Assembly (NCBI RefSeq): GCF_001984195.1
Contig: NZ_MTQN01000012.1
Coordinates: 1,736,001 to 1,800,000, forward strand
Direction: 5' to 3'
Length of the DNA stretch: 64,000 bases
Source of the DNA: Kribbella sp. ALI-6-A
GTDB taxonomy: Bacteria > Actinomycetota > Actinomycetes > Propionibacteriales > Kribbellaceae
The translations under genes were made by a program, and so were the position numbers. This document shows positions 36,128 to 61,286 of the stretch, piece by piece. Position 1 is the first letter of the stretch, and every line of letters starts with the position of its first letter. The notes beneath the pieces were generated by a model, which was not told the DNA's origin, did not search any database, and saw nothing but the letters and a program-made list of their open reading frames with translations.

Positions 36128-36131
36128 GGGA

Positions 36132-36752: not shown

Positions 36753-36754
36753 GC

Positions 36755-37759
36755 TCACGCGCCCCAGCGTAGGCCGGGGGTGTTCACGGGCGCGTCCCAG
36801 AGCCGTACCAGGTCGTCGTCCACCTTGAGCAGCGTGACCGAGCAGCCGGCCATCTCCAGCGAGGTGATGTAGTTGCCGACCAGCGAACGCGCGACGGTGA
36901 TGCCTGCCGCGTCGAGCAGTTGGCGGACCTCGTTGTACATCAGGTACAGCTCGATCAGCGGCGTACCGCCCATACCGTTGACGAAGGCAATCACCGAGTC
37001 GCCTTGGCTGTAGGGCAGGTCCTGCAGCACCGGGTCGACCAGCAGCGCGGCGACGTCCTTGGCCGGGGCCAGCGGCAACCGTTGCCGGCCGGGCTCGCCG
37101 TGGATGCCGATGCCGACCTCCATCTCGTTCTCGGCCAGCTCGAACGTCGGTTTGCCCGCGGCCGGCACCGTGCACGAGGTGAGCGCCATGCCCATGCTGC
37201 GGCCGTTGCCGTTGACCTTCTTGGCCAGGTCGGCGACCTCCTGCAGCGACCGGCCCTGCTCGGCGGCGGCGCCGACGATCTTCTCCAGCAGCACGGTCAC
37301 GCCGACACCCCGCCGGCCGGCCGTGTAGAGGCTGTCCTGGACCGCGACGTCGTCGTCGGTCACCACCGACAGCACCTCGGTGCCGGCCTCGGCCGCGGCC
37401 AGTTCGGCGGCCATCTCGAAGTTCATCACGTCGCCGGTGTAGTTTTTCACGATGTGCAGGACGCCAGCTCCGGCGTCGACCTCCTTGGTCGCCGCCATCA
37501 TCTGGTCCGGCACCGGGGAGGTGAACACCTCACCCGCGCAGGCGGCGTCCAGCATGCCCGGCCCGACGAACCCGCCGTGCATCGGCTCGTGCCCCGACCC
37601 GCCCCCGGAGATCAGCCCGACCTTCCCGCTGCGGGGTGCGTCCTTGCGATAGACGATCCGGTTCTCGTGGTCGACCCGGACGTGGTCGGGATGCGCGAGC
37701 GCCAGCCCACGCAGCGCTTCACTCACGACATCGGCGGGGTCGTTGATGAGCTTCTTCAT
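36755..37759 (-). CDS. dhaK: Dihydroxyacetone kinase subunit DhaK
   Basis: A 334-residue substrate subunit. The covalent dihydroxyacetone-binding His is in GIGIHGEPG (about residues 210-218), and the [17 protein letters not shown] loop near residue 52 is typical. ATG 37759 (MKKLINDP) is the family's usual start; an open extension to 37834 is discarded. It is the first gene of dhaK-dhaL-dhaM. No dedicated dhaR/dhaS regulator is adjacent. Lost from the family pattern: nothing that I can see. Confidence 0.96.
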
Positions 37760-37884
37760 GCCCCCCATCTGAGCACACCGGACGCCGCGGCGGGAGTCCC
37801 CGGCGGAGGGTCCGGCGGAGAACGTGCGAAACAAGAACCGCCCCGGCAGATGTGCCCGTCCGGGCAGCTCCTGGGGGCAGTGGT

Positions 37885-44056: not shown

Positions 44057-44905
44057 TCACCCGCCGTAGGCGGCGGGCCGGTCCGCGGCGGACTGCGCGT
44101 TGGCGGCCCAGAACCTGTTGCGCAGGGCAATCATCGTCGCGACCAGCAGCTCGGCGCGCGGGCGGACCAGCTCGTCGTCGAGCAGCCTGGTGTCGCCGGA
44201 GGTCTCGAACTCGCGGGCGCTGGTGGCGACCAGGTTCAGCAGCTCGGTGTTGCTGCGCAGGGTCAGCCGTTGCAGGGCGATCCGGTGCGCGGCGCCACCG
44301 CGCAGTCCGAGCAGCAGTCGCTCGCCGAGCAGGATCTCGGCCCACGCCTCGGCGAGCTGGTGCGACAGTCCGTCGGTGCCCAGCCACGGCCGGACCGCCG
44401 GAGCAAGTCGTTGCTGGTAGCCCGCAAGCCAGGGTGAGCAGTCGGCCTCGATCGCCGCGGTCGTGAAGTACGCCGGGGTGGAGCCGTCGCCGACCATCGC
44501 CCGCAGCATCGCGACCTTGTCCCGCACGCCGGCGAAGCGCGGCGTCCCGGCGAACAGGTCCAGGTCGTACTCGACCAGGACTCCCAGGCTGCGCAGCACC
44601 TGAACGGCGAGGATGAGCTCGCGGACCCGCGCCTGCTCTCCGGGGACTCCGTTCAGCGTGACGTGGACGAGGAAGAGCCCACTGTCCCGGAGCTGCCGGA
44701 AGTTTGCCTGCGTCACGTCGGTCGCCGTACAGGTCGTGCTCCACAGGACCTGGCCGAGCAGGCCGTCGTCGGTGAGCTGGGTGACGGCGTCGGAGCCGAA
44801 GGGGCGGCCCGGGCGTGCTCGTGCGCAGCGCAGCTTCAGCAGAGTCGCGCCGCCGGTCCGGCCGGTGAACCGGTGTGGCAGCACGACGCTCTGATCAGTA
44901 TCCAT
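44057..44905 (-). CDS. Unrecognised protein resembling the second half of a radical-SAM barrel
   Basis: A 282-residue soluble protein. Residues 60-130 (TDVTQANFRQLRDSGL, then VHVTLNG, and AVQVLRSLGVLVEYDLDLF) follow the alternation of helices and strands of the later half of radical-SAM barrels, where the enzyme handles its substrate. There is no CxxxCxxC cluster motif and the N-terminus is too short for the first half. The rest is helical. The ATG at 44905 is preceded by GGGGGGA. Possible roles: a degenerate partner or a non-catalytic scaffold. I cannot assign a function. Confidence 0.7.
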   Translation of the reverse strand: MDTDQSVVLPHRFTGRTGGATLLKLRCARARPGRPFGSDAVTQLTDDGLLGQVLWSTTCTATDVTQANFRQLRDSGLFLVHVTLNGVPGEQARVRELILAVQVLRSLGVLVEYDLDLFAGTPRFAGVRDKVAMLRAMVGDGSTPAYFTTAAIEADCSPWLAGYQQRLAPAVRPWLGTDGLSHQLAEAWAEILLGERLLLGLRGGAAHRIALQRLTLRSNTELLNLVATSAREFETSGDTRLLDDELVRPRAELLVATMIALRNRFWAANAQSAADRPAAYGG

Positions 44906-45437: not shown

Positions 45438-45462
45438 TGTTATGTTACCAACGTAACTAACA
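45438..45462. promoter_or_regulatory. Operator of the FGGY/DeoR operon
   Basis: Nested inverted repeats: inner arms GTTAC (45444-45448) and GTAAC (45453-45457) around CAAC, and outer arms TGTTA (45438-45442) and TAACA (45458-45462), with one extra base on the left. It lies 15 bases before the GTG of the first kinase gene and is the only strong palindrome ahead of the operon that encodes the DeoR regulator. Confidence 0.75.
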
Positions 45463-45477
45463 TCGGGAGGCGGAACT

Positions 45478-46902
45478 GTGGCGTGGATCGGCCTTGATCT
45501 CGGCACGCAGAGCGTGCGCGCCGTACTGGTCGGCGCCGCCGGCGAGGTGCTCGCGCGAGCCGCGCGCCCGCTGACCAGCCACCGCGACGGAGTCCGCCAC
45601 GAGCAGGACCCGCGGGAGTGGATCACCACCGTCGAGCAAGTCCTCGCCGAGGTGACCCAGGCCGATGACACGCAGCGCTCGCTGGCTCAGGACCGCGAGA
45701 TCGAGGGCCTGGCGATCTGCTCGACCTCGGGCACCGTTGTCCTGACCGACCGCCAGGGCCGGCCCGCCTCCGCCGCGCTGATGTACGACGACGCCCGCGC
45801 CGCCGAACTGCTGCCGCGGGTCGTCGCCGCCGATCCGGAGCGCTGGGCCGCCGCGATGCAGCCGACCTGGGCGCTGCCGAAGATCCTGTGGCTCGGCCCC
45901 GCCGACGACCAGCTCGTTGCCCATAGCGCGGACGTCGTCGCGGCCGACCTCGCCGGCCATCCGGTCGCCACCGACACCAGTCACGCGTTGAAGACCGGCT
46001 ACGACCTCGCCGGTAGCTGGCCGGCCGAGGCGTTCGAAAAGCTCGGACTGCCCGTCGGCACGCTGCCCGAGGTGGTCCTGCCGGGAACCGTCATCGGCGC
46101 GGTCTCGAAGGCGAAGGCGCAGGTCACCGGGGTTCCCGCCGGTACGCCGATCGTCGCCGGCATGACCGATGGCTGCGCGGCCCAGATCGCCGCCGGCGCG
46201 CTCACCCCCGGCGCCTGGAACTCGGTGCTCGGGACGACGCTCGTGCTCAAGGGCGTCACCAAGGACCTGCTGCGCGACCCGACCGGCGCTGTCTACAGCC
46301 ACCGCCATCCCGACGGCGACGGCTGGCTTCCGGGCGGCGCGTCCAACACCGGCGCCGGTGCCCTCACCTCGATGCTGCCCGGCGCGGATCTCGACGCGCT
46401 CGACCGGGCCGCGGTCGAGCAGGCCCACCGGACCGGGCCGGTCGATGCCGCGATCTACCCGCTGACCAAGCCTGGGGAGCGATTCCCGTTTGTCGCGCCC
46501 GACGCCGTCGGGTTCGAGCTGGGTGACGTCCCGGACGATCTGCATCGCTACCTCGGCGTGCTGCAGGGCGTCGCGTTCGTCGAGCGGCTGGCCTTCGAGC
46601 ACCTGACCCGGCTCGGCGCCGAGCCGCCGCGGTCGGTCGCGCTCACCGGCGGCGCGGTCCGCAGCGAGCACTGGAACCAGCTGCGCGCCGACGTTCTCGG
46701 CGTACCGGTCGAGCTGCCGGAGGCCGCTGATCCGGCGTACGGGATGGCTGTGCTGGCGGCGTCCCGCGGTACGTCGGTGGCCGGGACCGCGCGGCGGATG
46801 GTCCGGATCAGCCGCGTGATCGAGCCGCGCCCGAGCGAACGCCTCACCGACCTGTACGGCGCCTTCGTGGCCGAGCTGGAGCGCCGGGGGTACCTGCGAT
46901 GA
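45478..46902 (+). CDS. FGGY-family carbohydrate kinase (xylulokinase-like)
   Basis: A 474-residue sugar or polyol kinase. The N-terminal phosphate-binding DLGTQSVRAVLVG (about 5-17) and the second-domain motif NSVLGTTLVLKG (about 249-260), followed by GGASNTGAG, are typical FGGY features; the C-terminal ALTGGAVRSEHWNQ is the adenosine loop. The substrate is not predictable, though pentulose or tetritol kinases are closest in pattern. It starts with GTG at 45478 after GGGAGG. Its stop overlaps the next gene by 4 bases. Confidence 0.92.
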   Translation: MAWIGLDLGTQSVRAVLVGAAGEVLARAARPLTSHRDGVRHEQDPREWITTVEQVLAEVTQADDTQRSLAQDREIEGLAICSTSGTVVLTDRQGRPASAALMYDDARAAELLPRVVAADPERWAAAMQPTWALPKILWLGPADDQLVAHSADVVAADLAGHPVATDTSHALKTGYDLAGSWPAEAFEKLGLPVGTLPEVVLPGTVIGAVSKAKAQVTGVPAGTPIVAGMTDGCAAQIAAGALTPGAWNSVLGTTLVLKGVTKDLLRDPTGAVYSHRHPDGDGWLPGGASNTGAGALTSMLPGADLDALDRAAVEQAHRTGPVDAAIYPLTKPGERFPFVAPDAVGFELGDVPDDLHRYLGVLQGVAFVERLAFEHLTRLGAEPPRSVALTGGAVRSEHWNQLRADVLGVPVELPEAADPAYGMAVLAASRGTSVAGTARRMVRISRVIEPRPSERLTDLYGAFVAELERRGYLR

Positions 46903-47519
46903 GGACGACCGTCGTCCTGGCGCGGCACGGGCGGACCGAGTGGCACCACGGGAACCGGTACACCGGATCGACCGACCTGCCGATCGATTCGGTCGGTGTC
47001 CGGCAGGCCGAGTTCCTGCGGACGTGGGCGGTCGAGGAGTTCCGGCCGGACGCGCTCTGGTCGTCGCCGATGCTCCGCGCCCGCCAGACCGCCGCACCGA
47101 CCGCTGAAGCGCTCGGGCTCGAACCGACCGTCGACGCGCGGCTCCGCGAGGTCGACTTCGGATCGGCCGAGGGCAAGATGCTGAGCGAGCTGCCGCCGTC
47201 GGTCGGCCAGGCCTTCGAGCTCGACCCGGTCGCGAATCCCTTCCCTGATGGGGAAAACGTCGCGGACGCGGCCGTGCGGGTGCACGGCGCCTTCGACCAG
47301 ATCGTCCGGCGGCACGCGGGCGGCAAGGTGCTCGTCGTCGCGCACAACACGCTGATCCGGCTGCTGGTCTGCCGGGTCCTCGGCCTCGCGGTCAAGGACT
47401 ACCGCAGACTTCTCCCGGCACTCGGTCCCGCGGCGCTGGTGCGCTTGCGCGAGCAGGACGGCACAGTGGGTCTCGAAGCCTTCAACGTCCCCGCACTGCG
47501 AACGGAGATCCCGCAATGA
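46899..47519 (+). CDS. Histidine-phosphatase family protein (phosphoglycerate-mutase-like)
   Basis: A 206-residue phosphatase with the phospho-His motif ARHGRTEW (about 8-15), the acid in EVDFGSAEG and the second His in VVAHNTLIR. It may dephosphorylate a sugar phosphate made or imported by the cluster. It is coupled on both sides by ATGA overlaps: with the kinase upstream and the DeoR gene downstream. Confidence 0.93.
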   Translation: MRTTVVLARHGRTEWHHGNRYTGSTDLPIDSVGVRQAEFLRTWAVEEFRPDALWSSPMLRARQTAAPTAEALGLEPTVDARLREVDFGSAEGKMLSELPPSVGQAFELDPVANPFPDGENVADAAVRVHGAFDQIVRRHAGGKVLVVAHNTLIRLLVCRVLGLAVKDYRRLLPALGPAALVRLREQDGTVGLEAFNVPALRTEIPQ

Positions 47520-48310
47520 ACGAGATCGACACCGACACCGAGCTGAGCCGCCCCGCGCGCCGCCAGGCCGAGATCGCGGCGTACGTCGTCCAGCACGGTT
47601 CGGTGTCCGCGAACGATCTGGTCGAGGCGTTCGGGGTCAGCGTGATGACCGTGCACCGCGACCTCGACGAGCTCGAGCGCCAGGGCGTCGTCCGCAAGTT
47701 CCGCGGCGGGGTGACCGCGCAGCCGACCAGCGTGTTCGAGAGCAACGTCGCCTACCGGCTGAACACCGCGCAGTCCGAGAAGACCGCGATCGCCCGGCAC
47801 GCCCGGACGAAAATCGAGCCCGGCATGTCGGTGATGCTCGACGACTCGACCAGCGCGCTGGCCCTCGTCGACCTGCTCGAGGACATCACTCCGTTGACCG
47901 TGGCAACGAATTTCCTGCCCGCGATCACCCGGCTCACGCAGCTGCGCGACGTCACCTTGCTGGCGCTCGGAGGGATCTACTCCGCGACGCACGACTCGTT
48001 CGGGGGACTGCCGTGCGCGGAGGCCGTCGGTGCCCTGCACACCGATCTGCTGTTCTGCAGCGTCTCGGCGGTCTCGCCCACGCACGCCTTCCACCAGGAG
48101 CAGGAGATCGTCCTGGTGAAGCAGGCGATGCTCCGGTCGGCGCGGACCAAGGTGCTGCTCGTCGACCACGGCAAGCTGCAGCGCACCGCGCTGCACCGGC
48201 TCGCACCGCTGACCGACTTCGACGTGGTCGTCGTCGACGAGAAGACGCCCGAGGACCTGGTCCGCGGCCTGCGCGACCAGGGCGCCACCGTTGAAGTAGC
48301 ACCACTCTAG
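47516..48310 (+). CDS. DeoR-family transcriptional regulator
   Basis: A 264-residue repressor: the N-terminal winged helix VSANDLVEAFGVSVMTVHRDL (about 31-51) and the C-terminal sugar-phosphate sensor (DeoR-C) with DDSTSALALVDLL and the KQAMLRSA loop. It is made from the third gene of the operon, with 4-base overlap upstream, and probably binds the palindrome at 45438-45462, giving autoregulation by a phosphorylated intermediate. Confidence 0.94.
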   Translation: MNEIDTDTELSRPARRQAEIAAYVVQHGSVSANDLVEAFGVSVMTVHRDLDELERQGVVRKFRGGVTAQPTSVFESNVAYRLNTAQSEKTAIARHARTKIEPGMSVMLDDSTSALALVDLLEDITPLTVATNFLPAITRLTQLRDVTLLALGGIYSATHDSFGGLPCAEAVGALHTDLLFCSVSAVSPTHAFHQEQEIVLVKQAMLRSARTKVLLVDHGKLQRTALHRLAPLTDFDVVVVDEKTPEDLVRGLRDQGATVEVAPL

Positions 48311-48319
48311 GAGGCCGCA

Positions 48320-49906
48320 GTGGAGATCGGTGTCGATGTCGGAACCACAGTCACCAAGGCCGTCGCCTTCGACGACCAGGGTCGCCAGGTCGGCGAGGCG
48401 TCCCGCCCGACCCGCCTGGTCCGCCCGGGGCCCGGCCGGTTCGAGCACGACACCGACGAGATCGTTGCTTCGGTCAACGAGGTGATCGCGGAGCTGGTGC
48501 ACCGCCTGGGTGGCGACAGGGGCGCCGGCCGAGGATCGGACGGCTCGGCGGGCGAAGCACGCCGGTCAGCCGCGGGTGGCGCTGGGCCTACCTCCTCCTC
48601 TTTCGGGGGCGAGGCCGGCGCAGCCGGCGAGCCCGTGAGTTTGGTGGCGATCACTGGACAGGGGGATGGGCTCTGGCTGGTCGACGAAGCCGGGCGTCCC
48701 GTGCGTCCTGCGATCTCCTGGCTGGACGCACGGAGCAGCTCGATCCTGGGTCGCTGGACCGACAGCGGTGTGGCCGAGCAAGTCTTTCGGCGGTCCGGGA
48801 ACCGAATGTTCCCAGGGGCGTCCGGGCCGCTGCTGGCAGCTGTCCTGGAAGAGGAACCGGACACGCTGACCCGGGCAACCACCGCCGCGTACTGCAAGGA
48901 CGTGGTGATGCAGCGGCTCACCGGAGTCCGGGCCACCGACATCTCCGACGCGTCGGCGCCGTTCCTCGACCCGCGAACCGGCGACTACGACGCGGAAGCG
49001 CTGAGCGCCTGCGGGTTGAGCGACTGGCGACATCTGCTGGCTCCGGTCGCGCCGGACGGCCCGGTCGGCGAGCTGCACGACGCGAGCATCGGCCTGCCGA
49101 AGGGCACCAGGGTTTCCTCCGGCCCGTACGACCTGCCGGCCGCGGCGATCGGCGCAGGCGTGACCGAGGTCGGCGACGCGCTGCTCACCGTCGGTACGAC
49201 GCTCGCCTGTCAGGTGGTCACGCGAGACCTCCCGGTGGACGGCGAACCGGCCGGGCTCATTCTCGGTACCTGGACCCCCGGCGTCTGGCTGCGGGCCATG
49301 CCCGCGATGGTCGGTACCGCGGCGCTCGACCGCGTCCTGCACCTCGTCGGCGCGACCACCGACCAGCTGCAGCAGCTCCTCACCGACAGCCCGCCCGGCG
49401 CGAACGGCGTGACTGTCCTGCCGTACCTGTCCGAAGCTGGTGAGCGTGCGCCTTTCGTCGACACCAACGCCCGCGGTACTTTCGACGGCATCTCCCTGTC
49501 CACGACCCAGGGTGATCTGCTGCGCGCCACCTGCGAAGGCATCGCGTATGCCGCCCGGCACTGCCTCGAGGCGGCCGGTTGGTCCGGGAAGGTCACCGTG
49601 TGCGGCGGCGGTGCCCGCAGCAACGAGTGGACCCAGATCCTCGCCGACGTGCTCGACGCCCCGCTGCACACCACCGAGGCCTCGCAGGTCGCCGCCCGCG
49701 GCGCGGTGATCGCCGCCAAGCGGGTGCTCGGCGACGTGGGTGCCGAGTGGATCGCCGAGACCCGCCAGATCGATCCCGATCCCACCCGCGCGGCCTTCTA
49801 CGCCGAGGGCTACGCGCACTACCTGCGCCGGATCGAGGCCGCCCGCCCGCGCTGGGCGGATCCGGCGCCGGCGTATCAAGCGGCAACGCTCCCAGCCCCG
49901 GCCTGA
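48320..49906 (+). CDS. FGGY-family carbohydrate kinase with low-complexity insertion
   Basis: A 528-residue kinase distinct from the first. DVGTTVTKAVAFD at residues 5-17 and DALLTVGTTLACQVV near 285-299 give the phosphate sites; TVCGGGARSNEWTQ near residue 424 is the C-terminal adenosine loop. Between about residues 60 and 97 lies a Gly/Ser/Ala-rich insert absent from usual FGGY kinases, just before AITGQGDGLWLV. GTG 48320 follows AGGAGG. Two kinases in one operon imply two substrates or two steps. Confidence 0.9.
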   Translation: MEIGVDVGTTVTKAVAFDDQGRQVGEASRPTRLVRPGPGRFEHDTDEIVASVNEVIAELVHRLGGDRGAGRGSDGSAGEARRSAAGGAGPTSSSFGGEAGAAGEPVSLVAITGQGDGLWLVDEAGRPVRPAISWLDARSSSILGRWTDSGVAEQVFRRSGNRMFPGASGPLLAAVLEEEPDTLTRATTAAYCKDVVMQRLTGVRATDISDASAPFLDPRTGDYDAEALSACGLSDWRHLLAPVAPDGPVGELHDASIGLPKGTRVSSGPYDLPAAAIGAGVTEVGDALLTVGTTLACQVVTRDLPVDGEPAGLILGTWTPGVWLRAMPAMVGTAALDRVLHLVGATTDQLQQLLTDSPPGANGVTVLPYLSEAGERAPFVDTNARGTFDGISLSTTQGDLLRATCEGIAYAARHCLEAAGWSGKVTVCGGGARSNEWTQILADVLDAPLHTTEASQVAARGAVIAAKRVLGDVGAEWIAETRQIDPDPTRAAFYAEGYAHYLRRIEAARPRWADPAPAYQAATLPAPA

Positions 49907-49994
49907 CCATCCGGTGCCCGCCCTGACCACCCGACCCCCGCCCGAGCCCCGGCGATGCGTCCCCGGAGCCCCGCCCGACGATTTCAGGAGTTCG

Positions 49995-51017
49995 ATGAGA
50001 ACCGTCAAGACCCTGCTGGCCGGCGACCACTTCGTCCGCAACGAGCTGCTCGCCGAGGCGCTGTCCGCGCTGCCGGACGTCCGGTTCGACTTCCGCGAGG
50101 TGACGCTGCCCTGGCCGCTCACGCCGTACGGGCGGGTGGCCGAGGTGGACGAGGCGAGTGACGTCGAGGACGAGCTGATCGCCGCACTGCCCGGTGTCGA
50201 GCTGGCGGTGACGCAGATGGGACCGTTCACCGAGCGGGTGCTGGAGTCCGCGCCCGACCTGCGGTTCCTGGTCTGCTGCCGGGGCGGTCCGGTCAACGTG
50301 AACGTGCCCGCGGCAACGAAGCGCGGCGTCGTCGTCGCCTCGACTCCCGGCCGCAACGCGGTCGCGGCGGCCGAGCACGCGGTCGCTCTGACGATGGGTG
50401 CCTTGCGCAAGCTTCCCCAGCTGCAGCGCACCCTGGAGCAGGGTGAGTGGCGCAGTGACCTCTACGCCTACGACGAGTGCGGTTCCGAGCTGGAGGGCGC
50501 GACCGTCGGCCTGATCGGGTACGGCGCGATCGGCAGCCGGGTCGCCCGGGTGATGCTCGCGTTCGGCGCGCACGTCGTCGTGGTCGATCCCGTGCTCGAC
50601 GCGGCGTCCCCGCCGGACGGGATCGAGGTGGTCGAGCTGGACGAGCTGCTGACCCGCTCGGACGTAGTCAGCCTGCACGCGCGACTCACCGACGACACCC
50701 GCGGCATGATCGGCGCCGACCAGTTGGCGCGGATGCGGCCGGGCGCCGTACTGGTGAACACGGCGCGCGGTGGCCTGCTCGACTACGAGGCGACCGTGGA
50801 TGCGCTGGAGTCGGGGCAGCTCGGCGCCGCCGCCTTCGACGTGTTCCCGGCCGAGCCGTTGCCCGAGGGCTCGCGGTTGCTGACGGCACCCAATGTCGTG
50901 ATGACCCCGCATCTGGCCGGTGCGACCCGGCAGACCGCTCAGCGAGCTGCCTCGATCGCCGCTGAGGCCGTCGCGGCGTACCTGGCCGGGCGCGACCCGA
51001 TCGGGGTCAAGCGATGA
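49995..51017 (+). CDS. D-isomer-specific 2-hydroxyacid dehydrogenase
   Basis: A 340-residue NAD-dependent enzyme. The Rossmann motif GLIGYGAIGSRVA (about 169-181) follows the split catalytic domain. Substrate Arg is in NTARGGLLD, Glu in DVFPAEPLP and catalytic His in MTPHLAGATRQT. It would oxidise or reduce a polyol-derived 2-hydroxyacid. The ATG at 49995 has CAGGAG seven bases upstream. The open frame back to 49740 is a shadow of the kinase end. Confidence 0.93.
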   Translation: MRTVKTLLAGDHFVRNELLAEALSALPDVRFDFREVTLPWPLTPYGRVAEVDEASDVEDELIAALPGVELAVTQMGPFTERVLESAPDLRFLVCCRGGPVNVNVPAATKRGVVVASTPGRNAVAAAEHAVALTMGALRKLPQLQRTLEQGEWRSDLYAYDECGSELEGATVGLIGYGAIGSRVARVMLAFGAHVVVVDPVLDAASPPDGIEVVELDELLTRSDVVSLHARLTDDTRGMIGADQLARMRPGAVLVNTARGGLLDYEATVDALESGQLGAAAFDVFPAEPLPEGSRLLTAPNVVMTPHLAGATRQTAQRAASIAAEAVAAYLAGRDPIGVKR

Positions 51018-51042
51018 CTCCGTGGAGGGAACAGGTCAGGGC

Positions 51043-51735
51043 ATGAGGCTGGTGTCCGACAGCACCTGGACCGAGCTCCTCCTGCTGGTGATGGCGTTCG
51101 TGCTGTCGACGGTGATCGGGATCGAACGGCAGGTGCACCAGAAGGCCGCCGGGATGCGCACGCACACCCTGGTCGGCACCGGCGCGGCCCTGTTCACGCT
51201 GGTGTCGGGGTTCGGCTTCAACACCGTGCTCGGGACGGACGTCAATCTCGACCCGTCCAGGATCGCCGCCCAGGTCGTGTCCGGTGTCGGCTTCCTCGGG
51301 GCCGGCGTGATCTTCATGCGGCGCGACGTCGTCCGCGGGCTGACCACCGCCGCCACGATCTGGATGACCGCGGCGATCGGCATGGCCTGCGGGGCCGGTA
51401 TGCCGGTGCTCGCGGCCGCGGCGACCGTGCTGCACCTGATCGCGGTCGGCGCGTTCGGCCGCCTGGCGAGGTGCCTGCCGTCGCCCGACCGGAACCGGCT
51501 GGTCGTCGTCCGGTATCTCGACGGCTCCGGAGTCCTGCGGTCGATCCTGTCGACCGCGACCGTGATGGGCTTCGAGGCGTCGATCCTCGGCACCGACGTC
51601 CGGCGCGAGGACGGCCGGCCGCAGGTCCGGGCCGAGATGCGGTTCCGCGGCCGTCCGCCGCTGCAGGACCTTGTCCTCGCGCTCGGAGAGCTGGACGGTG
51701 TGACCGCGGTCAGACGGCGCGCGGATGACGATTGA
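51043..51735 (+). CDS. MgtC/SapB-family membrane protein
   Basis: A 230-residue protein. LLLLVMAFVLSTVIGIERQ, the conserved KAAGMRTHTLVGTGAALF, GVGFLGAGVI and RGLTTAATIWMTAAIGMACG give the five-helix MgtC core; the C-terminal 80 residues are an ACT-like domain. Members act in magnesium or phosphate stress and sometimes regulate partner transporters. ATG 51043 is chosen because the conserved start follows it. It lies between the dehydrogenase and the phosphatase, 25 bases after the former. Confidence 0.9.
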   Translation: MRLVSDSTWTELLLLVMAFVLSTVIGIERQVHQKAAGMRTHTLVGTGAALFTLVSGFGFNTVLGTDVNLDPSRIAAQVVSGVGFLGAGVIFMRRDVVRGLTTAATIWMTAAIGMACGAGMPVLAAAATVLHLIAVGAFGRLARCLPSPDRNRLVVVRYLDGSGVLRSILSTATVMGFEASILGTDVRREDGRPQVRAEMRFRGRPPLQDLVLALGELDGVTAVRRRADDD

Positions 51736-51799
51736 TGTGAATTGAGTGAGAAAATCACATCCTAGGACTGTTTGAAACCATCGTTCGGTGATAATTTCA
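51734..51799. promoter_or_regulatory. Regulatory region with inverted repeats before the phosphatase/ABC genes
   Basis: This AT-rich gap holds GATGTGA (51734-51740) with TCACATC (51755-51761), 14 bases apart, then TGAAA (51773-51777) with TTTCA (51795-51799) and a nested GGTGA-TAATT-TCACC near 51787-51801. GATAAT (51790-51795) may be a -10 for the downstream genes. It suggests a second, internally controlled transcript. Confidence 0.55.
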
Positions 51800-51804
51800 C
51801 CGGC

Positions 51805-52605
51805 ATGTCCACTCCCGATCCGCGCGACCTGCTCGGCCTGGCGACCCGCCTGGCCCATGCGGCCGGGGCGGAACTGCTGTCCCGGCGGGACGAGGTGTCG
51901 CTGGAGAGCGCCCAGACCAAGAGCTCCGGCACCGACCCGGTCAGCGCAGCCGATCGGGCCTCGGAGCAACTGATCGTCGACGGGCTGCTGACCGCCCGGC
52001 CCGGTGACGGACTGCTCGGCGAGGAGGGCGCCAGGGAGAGATCCACGACCGGACTGACCTGGGTGATCGACCCGCTCGACGGGACGGTCAACTACCTGTA
52101 CGGCCGCCCGGACTGGTGCGTCAGCATCGCGGTCCAGGACGCGCGCGGCGCGCTCGTCGGCGTGGTCCACCAACCGACGACCGGGATCACCTGGTCGGCG
52201 GTGCGCGGAGCGGGAGCGTCCCGCGACGGGAAGTACCTGCGGATCCGCGACCGCCGCAAGCTCGCCGAGGCGCTGGTCGCCACCGGCTTCTCGTACCTGG
52301 CCGAGCGCCGCGCGGAGCAGGCCGAGTACCTGCGCCACCTGCTGCCCGCCGTACGGGATCTGCGGCGGGGTGGGTCGGCGGCGCTCGACCTGTGCTCGGT
52401 GGCCGACGGTTCGGCGGATGCCTACTACGAGCACGTCATCCAGCCGTGGGACGTCGCCGCCGGTGGACTGATCGCGCGGGAGGCCGGGGCGCGCACGATC
52501 GGCGGGCCGGGCACGTCGTTGCCGGGTGGGTTGCTCGCGGCCCCGCCCGACCTGGCCGAGGCCATAGAGCGTCTGTTGAGCAGGGTGAGGAGACAAGTGG
52601 CATGA
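51805..52605 (+). CDS. Inositol-monophosphatase family phosphatase
   Basis: A 266-residue magnesium-dependent phosphatase. Signature 1 is DPLDGTVNYLYG (about 86-97), and signature 2 is in the C-terminal half, IQPWDVAAGGLIAREAG. Known members act on inositol phosphate, histidinol phosphate or sugar/glycerol phosphates. In this cluster a polyol phosphate is likely. ATG 51805 begins just after the palindrome; an alternative ATG at 51772 lies within it. Its stop overlaps the permease start by 4 bases. Confidence 0.92.
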   Translation: MSTPDPRDLLGLATRLAHAAGAELLSRRDEVSLESAQTKSSGTDPVSAADRASEQLIVDGLLTARPGDGLLGEEGARERSTTGLTWVIDPLDGTVNYLYGRPDWCVSIAVQDARGALVGVVHQPTTGITWSAVRGAGASRDGKYLRIRDRRKLAEALVATGFSYLAERRAEQAEYLRHLLPAVRDLRRGGSAALDLCSVADGSADAYYEHVIQPWDVAAGGLIAREAGARTIGGPGTSLPGGLLAAPPDLAEAIERLLSRVRRQVA

Positions 52606-53552
52606 CAGTGGTCGACCTGCCGGCCCGGGCGCACCCGGACGAGGTCCGGCAACCGCCCGGGACCGACGAACGACGGCGGCGCACCCGCCGCGAGTACGGG
52701 CTGTTCGCGCTCCTGGTGGCGCCGAACCTGCTGGTGATCGCGGTGTTCGCGTACTGGCCGATCGTCTACAACGCGTGGCTCAGCCTGACCGACTGGAACA
52801 TGATCGCGGCCCGGCCGACGTTCGTCGGCCTGGACAACTACGTGAACACGCTGACCGACCCGGCCTTCCACAAGACGCTGGGTGTCACGGTCGCGTTCAC
52901 CGGACTGATCGTGGCCGGCAGCCTGGTGATCGGCCTCGCGCTCGCGGTGCTGTTCAACCAGCCGCTGAAGGGCCGCGGCCTGGTCCGGACGATCTCGTTC
53001 GCGCCGCACATCCTGTCCGGGGCGGCGGTCGCGACGATCTGGTTGTTCGTCTTCGATCCCGGCTACGGCCTGATGCGGGCGCTGATCGAGCCGTTCGGCG
53101 CCGAGCCACCGGACTGGATGAACAACTCCGACTGGGCGTTGCCCGGCCTCGTCATCGTCTACCTGTGGAAGAACGTCGGGTTCACCGCGCTGATCTACCT
53201 GGCCGGGCTGCAGGGACTACCGAAGGAACTCGACGAGGCCGCCGCGATCGACGGCGCCGGCACCTGGACCCGGTTCCGCGCGATCAAGCTGCCGCTGCTC
53301 GCGCCGATCTCGTTCTTCCTGCTGATCACCACCGTGATCGGCACCTTCCAGGCCTTCGACGTGATCGCCGTGATGACCGGCGGCGGTCCCGGTGACGCCA
53401 CCACGACGCTGAGCTGGTCGATCTACAACGAGGGCTTTCAGGCGTTCAACGCCGGCCGGGCCGCGACGTTGTCGATCATCATGTTCGCCATCCTGCTGGT
53501 GGTCACCACGATCCAGGCCCGGGTGATGGAAAGGCGGGTGCACTACCGATGA
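52602..53552 (+). CDS. Carbohydrate ABC transporter permease (MalF/UgpA type)
   Basis: A 316-residue permease with six membrane segments after a charged N-terminus. The EAA loop that touches the ATPase is DEAAAIDGAGTWTRFRAIKLP (about 211-231). It is coupled to the phosphatase and the second permease by ATGA overlaps. No ATPase gene is nearby. Actinobacterial sugar systems of this kind usually share a single MsiK-type ATPase encoded elsewhere. Confidence 0.93.
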   Translation: MTVVDLPARAHPDEVRQPPGTDERRRRTRREYGLFALLVAPNLLVIAVFAYWPIVYNAWLSLTDWNMIAARPTFVGLDNYVNTLTDPAFHKTLGVTVAFTGLIVAGSLVIGLALAVLFNQPLKGRGLVRTISFAPHILSGAAVATIWLFVFDPGYGLMRALIEPFGAEPPDWMNNSDWALPGLVIVYLWKNVGFTALIYLAGLQGLPKELDEAAAIDGAGTWTRFRAIKLPLLAPISFFLLITTVIGTFQAFDVIAVMTGGGPGDATTTLSWSIYNEGFQAFNAGRAATLSIIMFAILLVVTTIQARVMERRVHYR

Positions 53553-54364
53553 AGGTGCGTGCGGTCCAGTACGTCGTCCTGCTCGGCGTCGCGGCGATCT
53601 TCTTGGGGCCCCTGTACTGGTTGATCAGCGCGGCCGTGAAGCAGCCGGCCGAGATCTACCAGTGGCCGCCGGTGTGGTGGCCCGACGACTTCACCTGGGG
53701 CAACTTCAAGCTCGCCTGGGATGCGGCGCCGTTCGACCGGTTCTTCGTCAACTCGACGGTGATCACGGTCGCCGGCACGATCCTGAAGGTGGCCAACGCG
53801 GTCCTGACGGCGTACGCGTTCGCCTATCTGCGGTTCCCGTTCAAGAAGGTGCTGTTCCTGCTGATCCTCGGCGCGATGATGGTGCCGGGCCACGTGACGC
53901 TGCTGCCGAACTACCTGACCGTGGCGTCGCTGGGCTGGATCAACACCTACGCCGGGCTGATCATCCCCGGCATCGGGTCGGCGTTCGCGACGTTCCTGAT
54001 GCGCCAGCACTTCCTCACGCTGCCCGGTGAGGTGACCGATGCGGCCGCGGTCGACGGCGCCGGTCACCTGCGGACGCTGTGGCGGGTGGTGCTGCCGATG
54101 TCGCGGCCGATGCTGGTCACCGTGGTGGTGATCACCGCGGTCGAGGAGTGGAACAACTTCGTCTGGCCGCTGATCGTCACCAACACCGCCGAGATGCGCA
54201 CGCTGCCGGTCGGCCTGCTGATCCTCAAGGACGAAGAAGGCCTGGCGAACTGGGGCACGATCATGGCCGGCACGTTGCTGGTGCTGGCGCCGATGCTGCT
54301 GATCTTCCTGTTCGCCCAGCGCTACATCGTCGGCGGCATCACGCAAGGAGCGCTGAAGGGATGA
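53549..54364 (+). CDS. Carbohydrate ABC transporter permease (MalG/UgpE type)
   Basis: A 271-residue permease with six membrane segments. The EAA-like loop is DAAAVDGAGHLRTLWRVVLP (about 163-182), and the short N-terminus has the SAAVKQPAEIYQWPP pattern of MalG proteins. Both ends overlap neighbours by 4 bases. It forms the membrane channel with the preceding gene. Confidence 0.93.
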   Translation: MKVRAVQYVVLLGVAAIFLGPLYWLISAAVKQPAEIYQWPPVWWPDDFTWGNFKLAWDAAPFDRFFVNSTVITVAGTILKVANAVLTAYAFAYLRFPFKKVLFLLILGAMMVPGHVTLLPNYLTVASLGWINTYAGLIIPGIGSAFATFLMRQHFLTLPGEVTDAAAVDGAGHLRTLWRVVLPMSRPMLVTVVVITAVEEWNNFVWPLIVTNTAEMRTLPVGLLILKDEEGLANWGTIMAGTLLVLAPMLLIFLFAQRYIVGGITQGALKG

Positions 54365-55683
54365 CGATGCGCCGCAGAACTTTCCTCGGCCTGGCCGGTG
54401 TGGCGTCGCTGGCGGGCTGTGGGTACCGCTCGCCGGACGCCGAGTACAAGCAGCCGGCCGGCGCCGTACCGAAGCAGTACGCCGGGCGGACCAGAGTCGT
54501 GTTCTGGTCGTCGTACGGCGGGACGAACGGCAAGGCGGTCGACAAACTCGTTGCCAAGTTCAACGAGTCGCAGACCGACGTCTACGTCGAGGCTCAGTTC
54601 CAGGGCAGCTACGACGACGTCGCGCAGAAGATCGCGGCCGGGCTGATCGCGCGGCAGACCCCGGACCTCGCCGTCCTGTCCGACGTCACCTGGGAACGCT
54701 TCTTCCTGAACGACGCGCTGGAACCGCTGAACGGCTACTTCACCGACGGCTTCGGCCCGGCGGTCTTCCACTCCAAGCTGTTCAACGAGTACGTCGTGAA
54801 GGGGCAGAGCTGGTGCGTCCCGTTCGCCCGGAGTACGCCGATCCTCTACTACAACCGCGACGTGTTCGCGAAGGCGGGACTGCCCGATCGGGCGCCGCGG
54901 ACGTGGAGCGAGCTGCGGTCGTGGGGTGCCACGCTCGCGAAGGTCGACGCCAACGGCCGGCCGATGCGGACGCTGGCGCTGGCGAAGGTGGACGGCGACT
55001 GGCAGTTCCAGGGCAACGTCTGGCAGTTCGGCGGCGCGTACTCCAAGGGCCTCGACGTGACGATCGACGAGGACGGCGCGGTCGCGGCCGGCGAGTTCCA
55101 GCGGCAGTTGATCCACATCGACGGCCACGGTTACATGGCCAGCAGCCCGATGACGGACTTCGCCGGCGGCCTGGTCGCGATGTGCCAGGACTCCACCGGT
55201 GGCCTGAAAAGCGCGATGAGCAAGGCGAAGTTCAAGGTCGGCGCCGGGTTCATCCCCTCCGAGGTCGCGGCCGGACTCGCGACCGGCGGTGGCGGGATCG
55301 GGATGTTCCGCAACGCGTCGGCCGAGCGCAAGCAGGCGGCCGCGAAGTTCCTCGAGTTCCTGGCCACGCCGGAGAACTCGGCCTGGTGGACCACCCAGAG
55401 CGGCTACCTGCCGGTGGTCGACAAGGCCCGCGAGGATCCGGCGCTGAAGAAGCTGGTGGCCGACGAACCCAACTACGGGGTGGCGATCGCCCAGCTGGTG
55501 AACGCCCGCCCGCAGGACGCGATCCGGCTCTACGGGCGCAACGCGAACGTCGCGATCTACACCGGCCTGCAGCAGATCTACGCCGACAACGCAGACCCGA
55601 AGAAGGTGTTCGCTTCGGTCGCCCGACGGCTGGAGGCGATCGCCGACGAGGTGTCCCGGCTGTACGAAAGCAAGGTGCTGTGA
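54361..55683 (+). CDS. Extracellular solute-binding lipoprotein (UgpB/MalE type), Tat-exported
   Basis: A 440-residue binding protein. The start MTMRRRTFLGLAGVASLAGC has both a twin-arginine motif and a lipobox (LAGC, Cys20), so it should be a folded Tat lipoprotein. The mature part has the family-1/UgpB pattern: VVFWSSYGG, NESQTDVYVEAQ, AARQTPDLAV-like stretch, and FLATPENSAWW near residue 343. With the two permeases and the phosphodiesterase it resembles the Ugp glycerophosphodiester system, but the ligand is not proven. Confidence 0.92.
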   Translation: MTMRRRTFLGLAGVASLAGCGYRSPDAEYKQPAGAVPKQYAGRTRVVFWSSYGGTNGKAVDKLVAKFNESQTDVYVEAQFQGSYDDVAQKIAAGLIARQTPDLAVLSDVTWERFFLNDALEPLNGYFTDGFGPAVFHSKLFNEYVVKGQSWCVPFARSTPILYYNRDVFAKAGLPDRAPRTWSELRSWGATLAKVDANGRPMRTLALAKVDGDWQFQGNVWQFGGAYSKGLDVTIDEDGAVAAGEFQRQLIHIDGHGYMASSPMTDFAGGLVAMCQDSTGGLKSAMSKAKFKVGAGFIPSEVAAGLATGGGGIGMFRNASAERKQAAAKFLEFLATPENSAWWTTQSGYLPVVDKAREDPALKKLVADEPNYGVAIAQLVNARPQDAIRLYGRNANVAIYTGLQQIYADNADPKKVFASVARRLEAIADEVSRLYESKVL

Positions 55684-55729
55684 GCAACCACATCGTTGTC
55701 GAGAGCAATCGAGTCGAGGAGAACACGCT

Positions 55730-56410
55730 GTGATCGTCACCGGACACCGAGGTTCGCTCGGATCCGAACCGGAGAACACGATCCGCTCGTTCCGGCGCGC
55801 GATCGCCGACGGCTGCGACGAGATCGAGCTGGACCTGCGGGTCACCGCGGACGACCGGCTGGTGGTGTTGCACGACGCGACGGTCGGCCGGACCACGAAC
55901 GGCACCGGGCCGGTCGAGGAACTCACGTTCGACGAGCTGCGCGCATTGGACGCGGGGCTCGGTGAGCGGGTGCCGACGTGGGCCGAGACGATCGAGGTCG
56001 TCGGCGTACGGATCCAGGCCGAGGTGAAGGCGGCCCGCGCCGTACCGCTGCTGGTGGAGTCGCTGCAGGCTGATCCGGAGCTGGCCGCCCGGACGATGGT
56101 CACGTCGTCGCACGCGGAGATCCTGCTCGCGATCCGGCAGGCGATGCCGTCCGCGTCCACCGGCCTGATCTTCGGGCGGACGCCGGACGTGGCCGACGTA
56201 CTGGCTCTGACGCGCGCCGCCGAAGCCGGTACGGCGTTGTGCGGCATCGCGGGGCTGACGGTCGAGGCAGTGGCCGAGCTGCATCGCGAGGGGTTCGACG
56301 TCACCGCCTGGCCGGTGCCGGACGCGGAGACGTTCGCGCGGGCGGTTGAGCTGGGAGTCGACGGGATCACCACGGACTACCCCGAACGTCTGGCCGCCGT
56401 ACGGATCTAG
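55730..56410 (+). CDS. Glycerophosphodiester phosphodiesterase family protein
   Basis: A 226-residue cytosolic GDPD enzyme: GHRGSLGSEPENTIRSF near residue 5 (catalytic His in HRG, PENT), EIELDLRVTADDRLVVLHDA near residue 30 (Glu-x-Asp metal ligands and HD) and EVKA near residue 101. It cleaves glycerophosphodiesters to sn-glycerol-3-phosphate plus an alcohol, matching UgpQ. The GTG at 55730 has GAGGAG ten bases upstream. It lies 46 bases after the binding-protein gene. Confidence 0.93.
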   Translation: MIVTGHRGSLGSEPENTIRSFRRAIADGCDEIELDLRVTADDRLVVLHDATVGRTTNGTGPVEELTFDELRALDAGLGERVPTWAETIEVVGVRIQAEVKAARAVPLLVESLQADPELAARTMVTSSHAEILLAIRQAMPSASTGLIFGRTPDVADVLALTRAAEAGTALCGIAGLTVEAVAELHREGFDVTAWPVPDAETFARAVELGVDGITTDYPERLAAVRI

Positions 56411-56422
56411 GGAGTGGCCTGG

Positions 56423-56475
56423 ATCACATATTTCAACGTGCGGATTTGTTCTTTCGTGGAACAAAAATGTGTGAT
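56423..56475. promoter_or_regulatory. Palindromic region before the Gfo/Idh gene
   Basis: TTTGTTC (56445-56451) and GAACAAA (56459-56465) are perfect 7-base arms around 7 bases. They are enclosed by ATCACAT (56423-56429) and ATGTGTGAT (56467-56475). The ATCACAT/ATGTGA element recurs in the 51734-51761 site, hinting at one shared regulator. Confidence 0.6.
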
Positions 56476-56486
56476 TGCCTAGCGTC

Positions 56487-57683
56487 ATGAGCATCAGCAT
56501 CGGTGTGGTCGGAGCCGGCCAGTTCGCCCCCTCGTTCCTGCGGTTGTGGACCGCGCATCCCGACGTCACGGAGGTCTCGCTGACCGACGTGCTGCCGGAC
56601 CGGCTGGCCGCGATGGCCGAGAAGCAGGGGGTGAAGGTCACCTACCAGTCGTTCGAGGACATGCTCGCCTCGGACGTCGACGCGGTCGCGATCTTCACCC
56701 AGCGCTGGCTGCACGGCGAGATGGCGATCCAGGCGCTCGAGGCCGGCAAGCACGTCTACTCGACGGTCCCGATGGCGATCGAGGCCGACCAGATCGCCCG
56801 GATCATCGAGCTGGTCAAGGAAACCGGCCTGACGTACATGATGGGCGAGACCAGCTACTACTACCCGTCGTCGGTCTACTGCCGCGACCGGCTGGCCAAG
56901 GGTGACTTCGGCCGGGTCTTCTACTGCGAGGGCGACTACGTCCACGACATGGATCTCGGGTTCTACGCGGCGTACCAGTACTCCGGTGGTGAGGACTGGA
57001 AGAAGACCGCGTCGTTCCCGCCCATGCTCTACCCGACGCATGCCGTCGGCAACGTGCTGTCGGTGACCGGGCAGCACGCGACGCACGTGTCCTGCGTCGG
57101 TGTGAAGGACGACCGCGGCGACGGGGTGTTCGACAAGGCGGTCAGCCAGTTCGACAACGACTTCTCCAACGCGACCGCGCTGTTCACGCTCGCCGACGGC
57201 GGCGTGATGCGGACCAACGAGATGCGCCGGGTCGGCTACCCGTCGCACATCCGCGAGTCGCGCCTGCGGGTCTTCGGCACCGAGGGCAGCTTCGAGCAGC
57301 TCGCCACCACCACGGTCTGGCAGACCAAGGAGGGCGTCGAGGACATCAGCCACCTGATGGAGACCAAGCCGTCCGGTTCGCTCGAGGACGACGACCTGGC
57401 CAACGTCGACCCCGCGCTGCGCGACGCGTTCCTGTCGGGCCTGTCCCCGGTGCACGACCGCACCCGCCTGCCCGCCGAGTTCGCCGGCCTGCACAACGGC
57501 CACGAGGGCTCGCACCACTTCCTGGCCGACGACTTCGTCCGCGCGGTCGTCGACAAGACCCTGCCCCCGGTCAACGCCTGGGTCGCGGCCCGGTACACGC
57601 TGCCTGGTATCTACGCCCACCAGTCGGCCCTCCAGGGCGGAGTCCAGCTGGAAATCCCGGACCACGGGGACGCCCCGGCCTGA
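56487..57683 (+). CDS. Gfo/Idh/MocA-family oxidoreductase lacking the usual EKP lysine
   Basis: A 398-residue NAD(P)-dependent oxidoreductase. The Rossmann motif GVVGAGQFAPSF opens the protein. The strand that normally carries the catalytic Lys as EKP reads HVYSTVPMAIEA (about residues 90-101), with no Lys, a variant seen in some related dehydrogenases or dehydratases. GETSYYYPSS near residue 119 leads into the C-terminal substrate domain. ATG 56487 begins at the conserved strand. It is the last gene of the cluster; a strong terminator follows. Confidence 0.88.
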   Translation: MSISIGVVGAGQFAPSFLRLWTAHPDVTEVSLTDVLPDRLAAMAEKQGVKVTYQSFEDMLASDVDAVAIFTQRWLHGEMAIQALEAGKHVYSTVPMAIEADQIARIIELVKETGLTYMMGETSYYYPSSVYCRDRLAKGDFGRVFYCEGDYVHDMDLGFYAAYQYSGGEDWKKTASFPPMLYPTHAVGNVLSVTGQHATHVSCVGVKDDRGDGVFDKAVSQFDNDFSNATALFTLADGGVMRTNEMRRVGYPSHIRESRLRVFGTEGSFEQLATTTVWQTKEGVEDISHLMETKPSGSLEDDDLANVDPALRDAFLSGLSPVHDRTRLPAEFAGLHNGHEGSHHFLADDFVRAVVDKTLPPVNAWVAARYTLPGIYAHQSALQGGVQLEIPDHGDAPA

Positions 57684-60443: not shown

Positions 60444-60470
60444 TAGCCGGACCCGTCGAAGCCCCGGCTA
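60444..60470. terminator. 7-bp hairpin between convergent stops
   Basis: TAGCCGG (60444-60450) and CCGGCTA (60464-60470) pair around 13 bases. It fills the 24-base gap between the NAGPA stop and the GntR stop and can serve both. Confidence 0.55.
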
Positions 60471-61154
60471 CGCCTGGTCGTAGATGCCGCGGAGGCGAAC
60501 CGACATCGAGTTGATCAGGTGCTGGGTCATCGAGTCCTCGGCCGCGACCGGGTCGCCGGAGCAGATCGCCTCGACCAGGTGGTGGTGCTCGGCCAGCACC
60601 TCGGGGCCGATGTCGCGGTCGTAGTGCAGCCGGAAGATGTGCAGGTGGCAGTGGGTCCGCTCGAAGGCGAGGCGGACCTGCTCGCTGCCGGACAGTTCGG
60701 CGATCAGCGTGTGGAACCGGTTGTCGTGCGCGGTGAGCGACCGGTAGCCCGCGTAGTCGACCGACGTGGGCTCGACGGCGGTGGACAGTTCGGCGGTGAG
60801 ACGCTCGCGCCCGATGTCGTCGATCAGTTCGGCGGCCCGGCGCGCGGCCCACGGCTCGATCAGGCGGCGGAACGCGTACAGGTCGTCGAACTCCTCCAGC
60901 GTCAGCAACGGCGTCGCCCGGTACCCCTTGAGCGGCTCCTTGTCGGCCAGCCCCTCCGACTCCAGCCGCGCCAGCGCCTCGCGGACCGGCGTGGACGACA
61001 CCTGGAACTCCCGCGCCAGCCCGTCGATGGAGATCCGCCCACCCGGCCGGATCGTGTGGTCCATCAGCATCGTCTTGATCGCCTCGTAGACGTCGTCCGC
61101 GAGCATCTGCCGACGCATCAGCCGCCGGTCGTGCGGCTCCAGGATGTCCGTCAT
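60468..61154 (-). CDS. GntR-family regulator (FCD domain)
   Basis: A 228-residue regulator. The winged helix covers about residues 14-80 (GGRISIDGLAREFQVSSTPVREALARLESEGL), followed by the all-helical FCD ligand domain with metal-ligand-like DNRFH and EHHHLVEAI. FCD regulators sense small carboxylates or sugar acids. It is divergent from the altronate-dehydratase-like gene across the 61221 palindrome, making that gene its target. Confidence 0.94.
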   Translation of the reverse strand: MTDILEPHDRRLMRRQMLADDVYEAIKTMLMDHTIRPGGRISIDGLAREFQVSSTPVREALARLESEGLADKEPLKGYRATPLLTLEEFDDLYAFRRLIEPWAARRAAELIDDIGRERLTAELSTAVEPTSVDYAGYRSLTAHDNRFHTLIAELSGSEQVRLAFERTHCHLHIFRLHYDRDIGPEVLAEHHHLVEAICSGDPVAAEDSMTQHLINSMSVRLRGIYDQA

Positions 61155-61220
61155 CGGCCTCTCCACACAGTGGTCTCGCCCTTGACCCGGCCGCGTGGAT
61201 TCGGCAGGGTGGCTGTCGTA

Positions 61221-61239
61221 ATCATGCATCATGCACGAT
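61221..61239. promoter_or_regulatory. GntR operator
   Basis: TGCAT-C-ATGCA (61225-61235) is a perfect palindrome; flanking ATC and GAT extend the symmetry to 19 bases with one mismatched pair. It lies 67 bases from the GntR start and 48 bases before the UxaA-like ATG. Confidence 0.82.
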
Positions 61240-61286
61240 TCGCGGTTCGACCACCAGCACCGAACGGCTTGGGAGAGGTCCACCTG

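Follow-up and report, generated by a model that had tools for sequence, protein, structure and literature searches.

A conserved FGGY kinase core joined to a putative phosphodiester uptake module in Kribbella

The window analysed here is a stretch of 64,000 nucleotides from Kribbella sp. ALI-6-A (contig NZ_MTQN01000012.1, positions 1,736,001 to 1,800,000). Open reading frames and domain reading show twelve plus-strand genes at 45478-57683 with no opposite-strand gene between them (Table 1). Five pairs of neighbours overlap by 4 bp (FGGY1/HP, HP/DeoR, IMPase/MalF, MalF/MalG and MalG/SBP), the widest intergenic gap in the run is about 88 bp, no sigma-70-like promoter was found inside it and terminator-like sites within it are not above the chance number. 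The twelve genes very probably form one operon. This co-directional run had been recognized in the original prediction, whose domain calls for all twelve products agreed with Pfam and NCBIfam (the permeases by NCBIfam). The first codon is a GTG at 45478; the earlier start at 45438 also covers an operator-like palindrome.

Table 1. Genes of the run and its upstream site, with coordinates in the window.
Feature	Part	Coordinates	Strand	Basis
Operator-like palindrome TGTTACCAACGTAACTAACA, predicted DeoR site		45443..45462		Conservation, genome search
FGGY1 kinase, SePSK (D-ribulose kinase)-like	core	45478..46902	+	Pfam/NCBIfam, PDB relatives, tree
Histidine phosphatase (HP, branch 1)	core	46899..47519	+	His_Phos_1; Pfam/NCBIfam
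DeoR-family regulator	core	47516..48310	+	Pfam/NCBIfam
FGGY2 kinase, clade sister to L-xylulose kinase LyxK	core	48320..49906	+	Pfam, tree
NAD-type D-2-hydroxyacid dehydrogenase (DHDH), R/E/H motifs	core	49995..51017	+	Pfam/NCBIfam, motifs
MgtC/SapB family membrane protein	variable module	51043..51735	+	Pfam
Inositol-monophosphatase-family phosphatase (IMPase, Inositol_P)	variable module	51805..52605	+	Pfam
ABC permease (MalF), best NCBIfam UgpA	variable module	52602..53552	+	NCBIfam
ABC permease (MalG), best NCBIfam UgpE	variable module	53549..54364	+	NCBIfam
Tat-type lipoprotein binding protein (SBP), M. tuberculosis UgpB type	variable module	54361..55683	+	Alignment to solved relative; SBP_bac
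GDPD, cytoplasmic glycerophosphodiester phosphodiesterase family	semi-variable	55730..56410	+	Pfam
Gfo/Idh/MocA oxidoreductase, last gene		56475..57683	+	Pfam/NCBIfam

The palindrome is found 5' of FGGY1 in 19 of 20 Kribbella loci (L039-L058; background 24/3000), and a related site occurs in some Jiangellaceae loci. Because it is kept in Kribbella and is present as one exact copy in the 8.1-Mb genome, it probably marks a single DeoR-controlled operon; a wider regulon reached through this palindrome was ruled out, since no second exact site exists.

FGGY1, the histidine phosphatase, DeoR, FGGY2 and the 2-hydroxyacid dehydrogenase, defined here as the core, occur in every one of the 20 Kribbella loci compared and, in shuffled order, in Jiangellaceae, Streptomyces, Nocardioidaceae and others. 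A class-wide draw of 39 loci contained HP in 38, FGGY2 in 37 and DHDH in 35, and distances among the core proteins correlate at 0.77-0.88. The possibility that the run was a chance neighbourhood, to be accepted if gene order were not conserved, was ruled out, as the core order is kept across families far above chance. The core is almost certainly a genuine pathway unit. It is common in Actinobacteria under differing transporters and extends to other phyla. The importer/IMPase/MgtC block (UgpABE-like) and GDPD vary between loci: the block is missing from seven of the 20 Kribbella loci, three of which also lack GDPD, so the core must function without either. GDPD, IMPase, MgtC and the importer, initially taken as pathway parts, very probably belong to this operon but as a variable module and not as core. 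The Gfo/Idh/MocA oxidoreductase occurs in 20/20 Kribbella loci and was found with the core in none of the loci compared outside this genus. A literature search on this gene combination returned nothing relevant, and no paper naming the core was found.

The SBP carries a twin-arginine and lipobox N-terminus (MTMRRRTFLGLAGVASLAGC) and has M. tuberculosis UgpB as its nearest solved relative (E 3e-73). Aligned to 4mfi/6r1b, it keeps the four phosphate ligands Y78, S153, S272 and Y345 as well as G306, D102 and R385; the roles of the UgpB pocket residues, including phosphate and glycerol coordination, have been described (PMC12718374). A V replaces the second Trp of G3P-type UgpB, which fits the expectation for a diester. 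The permeases score best in NCBIfam against UgpA, with 201 bits for a cut-off of 335, and against UgpE, with 181 bits for a cut-off of 297, and GDPD matches PF03009 (2.4e-36) and NF006989 (96 bits, under its cut-off of 264). GDPD lies beside the core in 17/20 Kribbella and 15/16 Jiangellaceae loci, where about 0.03 per 20 kb would be expected from about 11 GDPD per 7 Mb among the matches listed; these counts rest on GDPD queries other than the mis-stranded L001-L003. Streptomyces core loci have a GDPD of another, secreted kind. The retained UgpB-type pocket and the recurrence of GDPD beside the core speak for the phosphodiester uptake and cleavage proposed in the original prediction, and import and cleavage of such a compound are likely functions of this module.

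For FGGY1 the best PDB relative is SePSK (E 8e-67 versus 5e-50 for XylB), whose D-ribulose kinase activity and catalytic and substrate residues have been reported (PMC4880283); the alignment shows that SePSK positions D8, T11, S72, K163 and D221 are kept. Of the E. coli FGGY kinases in the tree, LyxK is the sister of the FGGY2 clade. Against the XylB NCBIfam cut-off of 380, FGGY1 scores 151 bits and FGGY2 234 bits, and the cut-offs of the named FGGY equivalogs (xylulokinase, gluconokinase, other) are not reached. In relatives, a core-linked MFS transporter exceeds the RbtT/DalT/CsbX cut-off, the core-linked SBP is nearest a mannitol-binding protein in Streptomyces and nearest XylF in Nocardioidaceae-type loci, and the core-linked aldolase is nearest haloarchaeal ribulose-1-phosphate aldolase. 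The likeness of FGGY1 to a D-ribulose kinase, the grouping of FGGY2 with LyxK, and the RbtT/DalT transporter and ribulose-1-phosphate-aldolase-like partners speak for a pentulose or pentitol, which as the head group has about an even chance of being correct. The FGGY kinases would be likely to act next, phosphorylating the polyol or pentulose that is set free, as anticipated.

Taken as a whole, our best explanation is tentative and falls slightly short of an even chance, substrate, reaction order and regulation being read from sequence. In this DeoR-controlled operon, a UgpABE-type ABC transporter would import a glycerophosphodiester, GDPD would cut it in the cytoplasm, and IMPase would strip the phosphate if the head group comes off with one attached. 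The two FGGY kinases would then pass this head group, most probably a pentulose or pentitol, into the central pentose pool. Teichoic-acid-like ribitol or arabitol units are a possible source of it. Several points count against this explanation: FGGY1, FGGY2, the aldolase, UgpA and UgpE are all under curated equivalog cut-offs, many related core loci have free-sugar transporters and no phosphodiesterase was seen in them, the core contains no polyol dehydrogenase, and the catalytic motifs retained by DHDH are of carboxylate type and suggest an acid. Should the explanation hold, a route for polyol phosphodiesters, possibly those of teichoic acid, would join the known ways in which carbon and phosphorus are used in soil, and two orphan FGGY subfamilies would acquire likely substrates. 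A dihydroxyacetone kinase operon 8 kb away had been suggested as a possible outlet for the triose product; DhaKLM genes do exist at about 33.6-37.8 kb on the minus strand, some 7.6 kb off with unrelated genes between, but in 18 other Kribbella loci the 10 kb around the core hold no DAK, and the link was rejected as not conserved. A DHA-kinase-family gene occurs inside the core locus of two distant relatives (L067, L195).

The operon may instead be composite, the core serving a free pentulose, pentitol or pentose pathway and the Ugp-like importer, GDPD and IMPase representing a captured general scavenging module for glycerophosphodiesters (phosphorus and glycerol). The seven Kribbella loci that keep the core without the importer block favour this somewhat unlikely reading, as do the two halves in Jiangellaceae, which form divergent operons each with its own DeoR paralogue, and the MFS, XylF-like or polyol transporters that partner the core in other lineages; yet on more than one occasion phosphodiesterases of differing lineage have come to be linked with the core, and the second DeoR of Jiangellaceae retains 51% identity to that of the window. 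It is unlikely that the core handles sugar acids along the lines of the E. coli yia (2,3-diketo-gulonate) route, in which case DHDH would convert aldonates between their 2-keto and D-2-hydroxy forms and FGGY2 would phosphorylate the 2-keto form. DHDH is a near-invariant member of the core and its acid-binding motifs are intact, and LyxK, sister to FGGY2, shares its operon with the genes for 2,3-diketo-L-gulonate reductase and for 3-keto-L-gulonate-6-phosphate decarboxylase; the loci, however, share no aldonate decarboxylase, dehydratase or aldolase, their transporters are of polyol/pentose type and partner enzymes act on ribulose phosphates. A sugar-sugar phosphodiester whose cleavage yields a sugar 2-phosphate doubling as DeoR effector, a reading for which the acc-like toolkit speaks, is very improbable, given a UgpB-type SBP with glycerol-phosphate ligands, acc genes that as described in PMC4526662 include neither FGGY kinases nor DHDH, and SBP matches that are best to UgpB proteins, with no AccA entry (pyranose-2-phosphate binding) recognised among them.

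Form II RuBisCO was found in 3 of 394 Streptomyces, in every case within the core operon and at its end, and no phosphoribulokinase was found in these three. Two Streptomyces PF00485 matches checked as hidden phosphoribulokinases were pantothenate kinases (panK_bact, about 448 bits, NCBIfam), and the match in G828 looks like another; RuBisCO-less controls have similar matches. Nothing relevant was found in the literature on FGGY kinases with RuBisCO or on Form II RuBisCO in Streptomyces. The joining of the core to RuBisCO in a few Streptomyces suggests an undescribed sugar pathway, and such an enzyme without phosphoribulokinase in heterotrophs raises the question of whether FGGY kinases make its substrate. 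In one distinctly unlikely scheme, a pentulose would be phosphorylated by first one and then the other kinase, yielding a ribulose bisphosphate with no need of phosphoribulokinase. RuBisCO would consume this product in the three Streptomyces, and a phosphatase together with ribulose-1-phosphate aldolase would do so in the other family of the order that has large genomes; Kribbella, with its pentulose derived from the imported phosphodiester, would use a different exit.

Compared with RuBisCO and pentose bisphosphate pathways, to which the three Streptomyces operons and the loci with a ribulose-1-phosphate-aldolase-like protein relate, the Kribbella locus has neither a RuBisCO nor an aldolase gene. 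SePSK (Synechococcus) and AtXK-1 are the best-matching solved relatives of FGGY1, for which D-ribulose activity is predicted, but SePSK is not known from an operon like this one. As in the E. coli yia operon, a keto-acid reductase adjoins the kinase; LyxK has AQGKG where FGGY2 has GQGDG, and no equivalents of SgbH, SgbU or SgbE were seen. With the UgpABCE/UgpQ system for glycerophosphodiester uptake the locus shares an importer resembling UgpA, UgpE and UgpB together with GDPD in one operon, and the UgpB pocket ligands; it differs in its sub-equivalog permeases, in having no dedicated ATPase and in that HP, DHDH, IMPase and a pair of FGGY kinases accompany the importer. The original prediction could name no matching catabolic locus, and none described with this combination was found; nevertheless, the agrocinopine acc operon of pTiC58, which comprises a DeoR repressor, an ABC importer, a phosphodiesterase (cytoplasmic) and a phosphatase (PMC4526662), follows a parallel logic. 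When the two are compared by gene types, all four occur in Kribbella, where they are accompanied by a UgpB-type SBP, FGGY kinases and DHDH.

The twelve rightward genes form one unbroken plus-strand run in this 8.1-Mb genome, with no gap larger than about 88 bp and five overlaps of 4 bp, in agreement with the original prediction, whose domain assignments all hold. UgpA and UgpE are the best-scoring families for the two permeases. The palindrome TGTTACCAACGTAACTAACA precedes the first gene, and no further exact copy was found elsewhere in the genome. Sites of this type lie 5' of FGGY1 in 19 of 20 Kribbella loci (search-expression background, 24 of 3000 random pieces) and a related site, TGTTATC-N5-GATAAC, was found in some Jiangellaceae loci. 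The natural reading is that the twelve genes would constitute one autoregulated operon.

The core, ordered FGGY1, histidine phosphatase (HP), DeoR, FGGY2 and D-2-hydroxyacid dehydrogenase (DHDH), is kept together with the terminal Gfo/Idh gene in all 20 Kribbella loci. Thirteen carry both the glycerophosphodiester phosphodiesterase (GDPD) and the importer block, MgtC-IMPase-MalF-MalG-solute-binding protein (SBP); four have GDPD without this block and three have neither. A search within the order detected FGGY1 in 35 same-genus genomes, three being listed without it. In a sample drawn over the class FGGY1 was detected in 43 of 395 genomes, and the 39 loci outside the order encode, inside the fetched stretch, HP (38), an FGGY2 homologue (37) and DHDH (35). 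Distance matrices of the core proteins correlate at 0.77-0.88, to which shared species history contributes; FGGY2 forms a single clade with divergent FGGY2s of other lineages, and core genes also occur on acidobacterial and verrucomicrobial contigs. Gene order, proposed earlier as the check, marks the run as real and conserved, and of greater interest than a chance neighbourhood. The dihydroxyacetone kinase operon was suggested as a nearby partner, but in other Kribbella no such operon lies close to the core. Upstream of the run, a minus-strand protein recurs at the equivalent position in 8 of 20 Kribbella loci. A GntR-type regulator, found near the right end of the window, adjoins in four Kribbella loci (L041, L043, L053, L055) a run resembling sugar-acid catabolism (FAH-like, altronate/galactarate-dehydratase-like and aldehyde dehydrogenase, named by eye from sequence).

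Coordinates of features in the window and in related loci (L, fetched genomic stretches)
Feature	Position	Remark
DhaKLM-type dihydroxyacetone kinase operon	33602-37834	minus strand
Upstream protein	44057-44905	minus strand
Palindrome TGTTACCAACGTAACTAACA	45443-45462	upstream of first gene
Twelve-gene run	45478-57683	plus strand
FGGY2	48320-49906	
GntR-type regulator	60468-63026	
Form II RuBisCO, Streptomyces	L208:9127-10503; L209:8796-10169; L210:2467-3843	directly downstream of FGGY core
Acidobacterial stretches with FGGY1 and HP	L092:1110-12161; L095:10001-15951	upstream of cbbL-cbbS-cbbX
Jiangellaceae loci with genes facing core	L086:848-8959; L104:2602-9807	

The SBP matches UgpB of M. tuberculosis (4mfi, 6r1b; E 3e-73). 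Two Tyr and two Ser are the phosphate ligands kept in UgpB and in glycerophosphocholine- and U3G-binding proteins, and Gly306, Asp102 and Arg385 contact the glycerol hydroxyls in the glycerophosphocholine-binding protein (PMC12718374). In the alignment (4mfi numbering) Y78, S153, S272, Y345, G306, D102 and R385 are all conserved, the first four corresponding, in our reading, to Tyr64, Ser143, Ser266 and Tyr342 of that study. G3P-type UgpB holds G3P between two clamping Trp; one of these positions is Val in the SBP and Leu in M. tuberculosis UgpB, a replacement that would be expected for a diester ligand.

A UgpB-type SBP is also found in Jiangellaceae, where GDPD adjoins the core in 15 of 16 loci, the chance expectation being about 0.03 per 20 kb (from about 11 GDPD genes, among the matches listed, per genome of about 7 Mb). 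Two Jiangellaceae loci have an extra second GDPD plus IMPase. Facing the core in L086 and L104 are a divergent DeoR paralogue together with GDPD and IMPase, and either one or two ABC importers. A secreted GDPD from a different subfamily lies after FGGY2 in Streptomyces, where 4 of the 6 ABC-type loci in the class sample have it, and the ABC importer SBP there is nearest to mannitol-binding 4rya. Some MFS-type loci encode a secreted protein, a weak third case since its GDPD_2 match is only marginal. Judged from this anatomy, enzyme location fits the importer, secreted GDPD accompanying the polyol type and cytoplasmic GDPD the UgpB type. The proposal of phosphodiester uptake and cleavage stands, with the predicted UgpB-type pocket residues kept and GDPD recurring beside the core.

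Regarding the head group, FGGY1 matches best the profile of SePSK (8e-67, versus 5e-50 for XylB), which has D-ribulose kinase activity (PMC4880283), and E. coli LyxK is sister to FGGY2 in the tree; the core kinases missed the cut-off of every named FGGY equivalog. Elsewhere the core is accompanied by an RbtT/DalT/CsbX-type MFS transporter (510 bits, cut-off 375), a XylF-like SBP, a DHA-kinase-family protein with RpiB, and a class II aldolase nearest to ribulose-1-phosphate aldolase (177 bits, below the cut-off of 300). All of these point to pentulose or pentitol chemistry, and none proves it. DHDH, the component that this reading accounts for least, argues for an acid somewhere along the route; the Gfo/Idh enzyme is Kribbella-specific among the loci sampled. 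By eye, a Gly/Ser-rich insertion at about residues 65-98 of this genome's FGGY2 looks longer than the one in its relatives.

Of 394 Streptomyces genomes, three encode a Form II RuBisCO, which scores 872 bits against the Form II NCBIfam model and has the active-site motifs KPKLGL, KNDEP, HRAGHG and GKMEG intact by eye; in all three (as seen also at L107 and L112) it lies directly 3' of MFS-FGGY2s-FGGY1-HP-DHDH. No PF00485 match of phosphoribulokinase (PRK) strength was found in these three genomes, where the hits were limited to pantothenate kinase plus a weak uridine-kinase-like protein, controls being similar; such absence, weak alone in draft assemblies, is strengthened by the three genomes, one in four contigs. 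In the acidobacterial genomes, where FGGY1-HP lies upstream of the cbb genes, a match of PRK strength was found (about 130 bits), placed after cbbX in L092. The RuBisCO link is a lead from relatives, the window itself carrying no RuBisCO feature.

Together, the core and its relatives turn the focus to an undescribed pentulose/pentitol kinase module, possibly with a RuBisCO branch, and no description of the operon's gene combination was found in the literature searched. The agrocinopine acc operon is alike in function to the right half plus DeoR and phosphatase, but a different kind of binding protein sets the run apart from acc; the right half works, by function, like Ugp/UgpQ.
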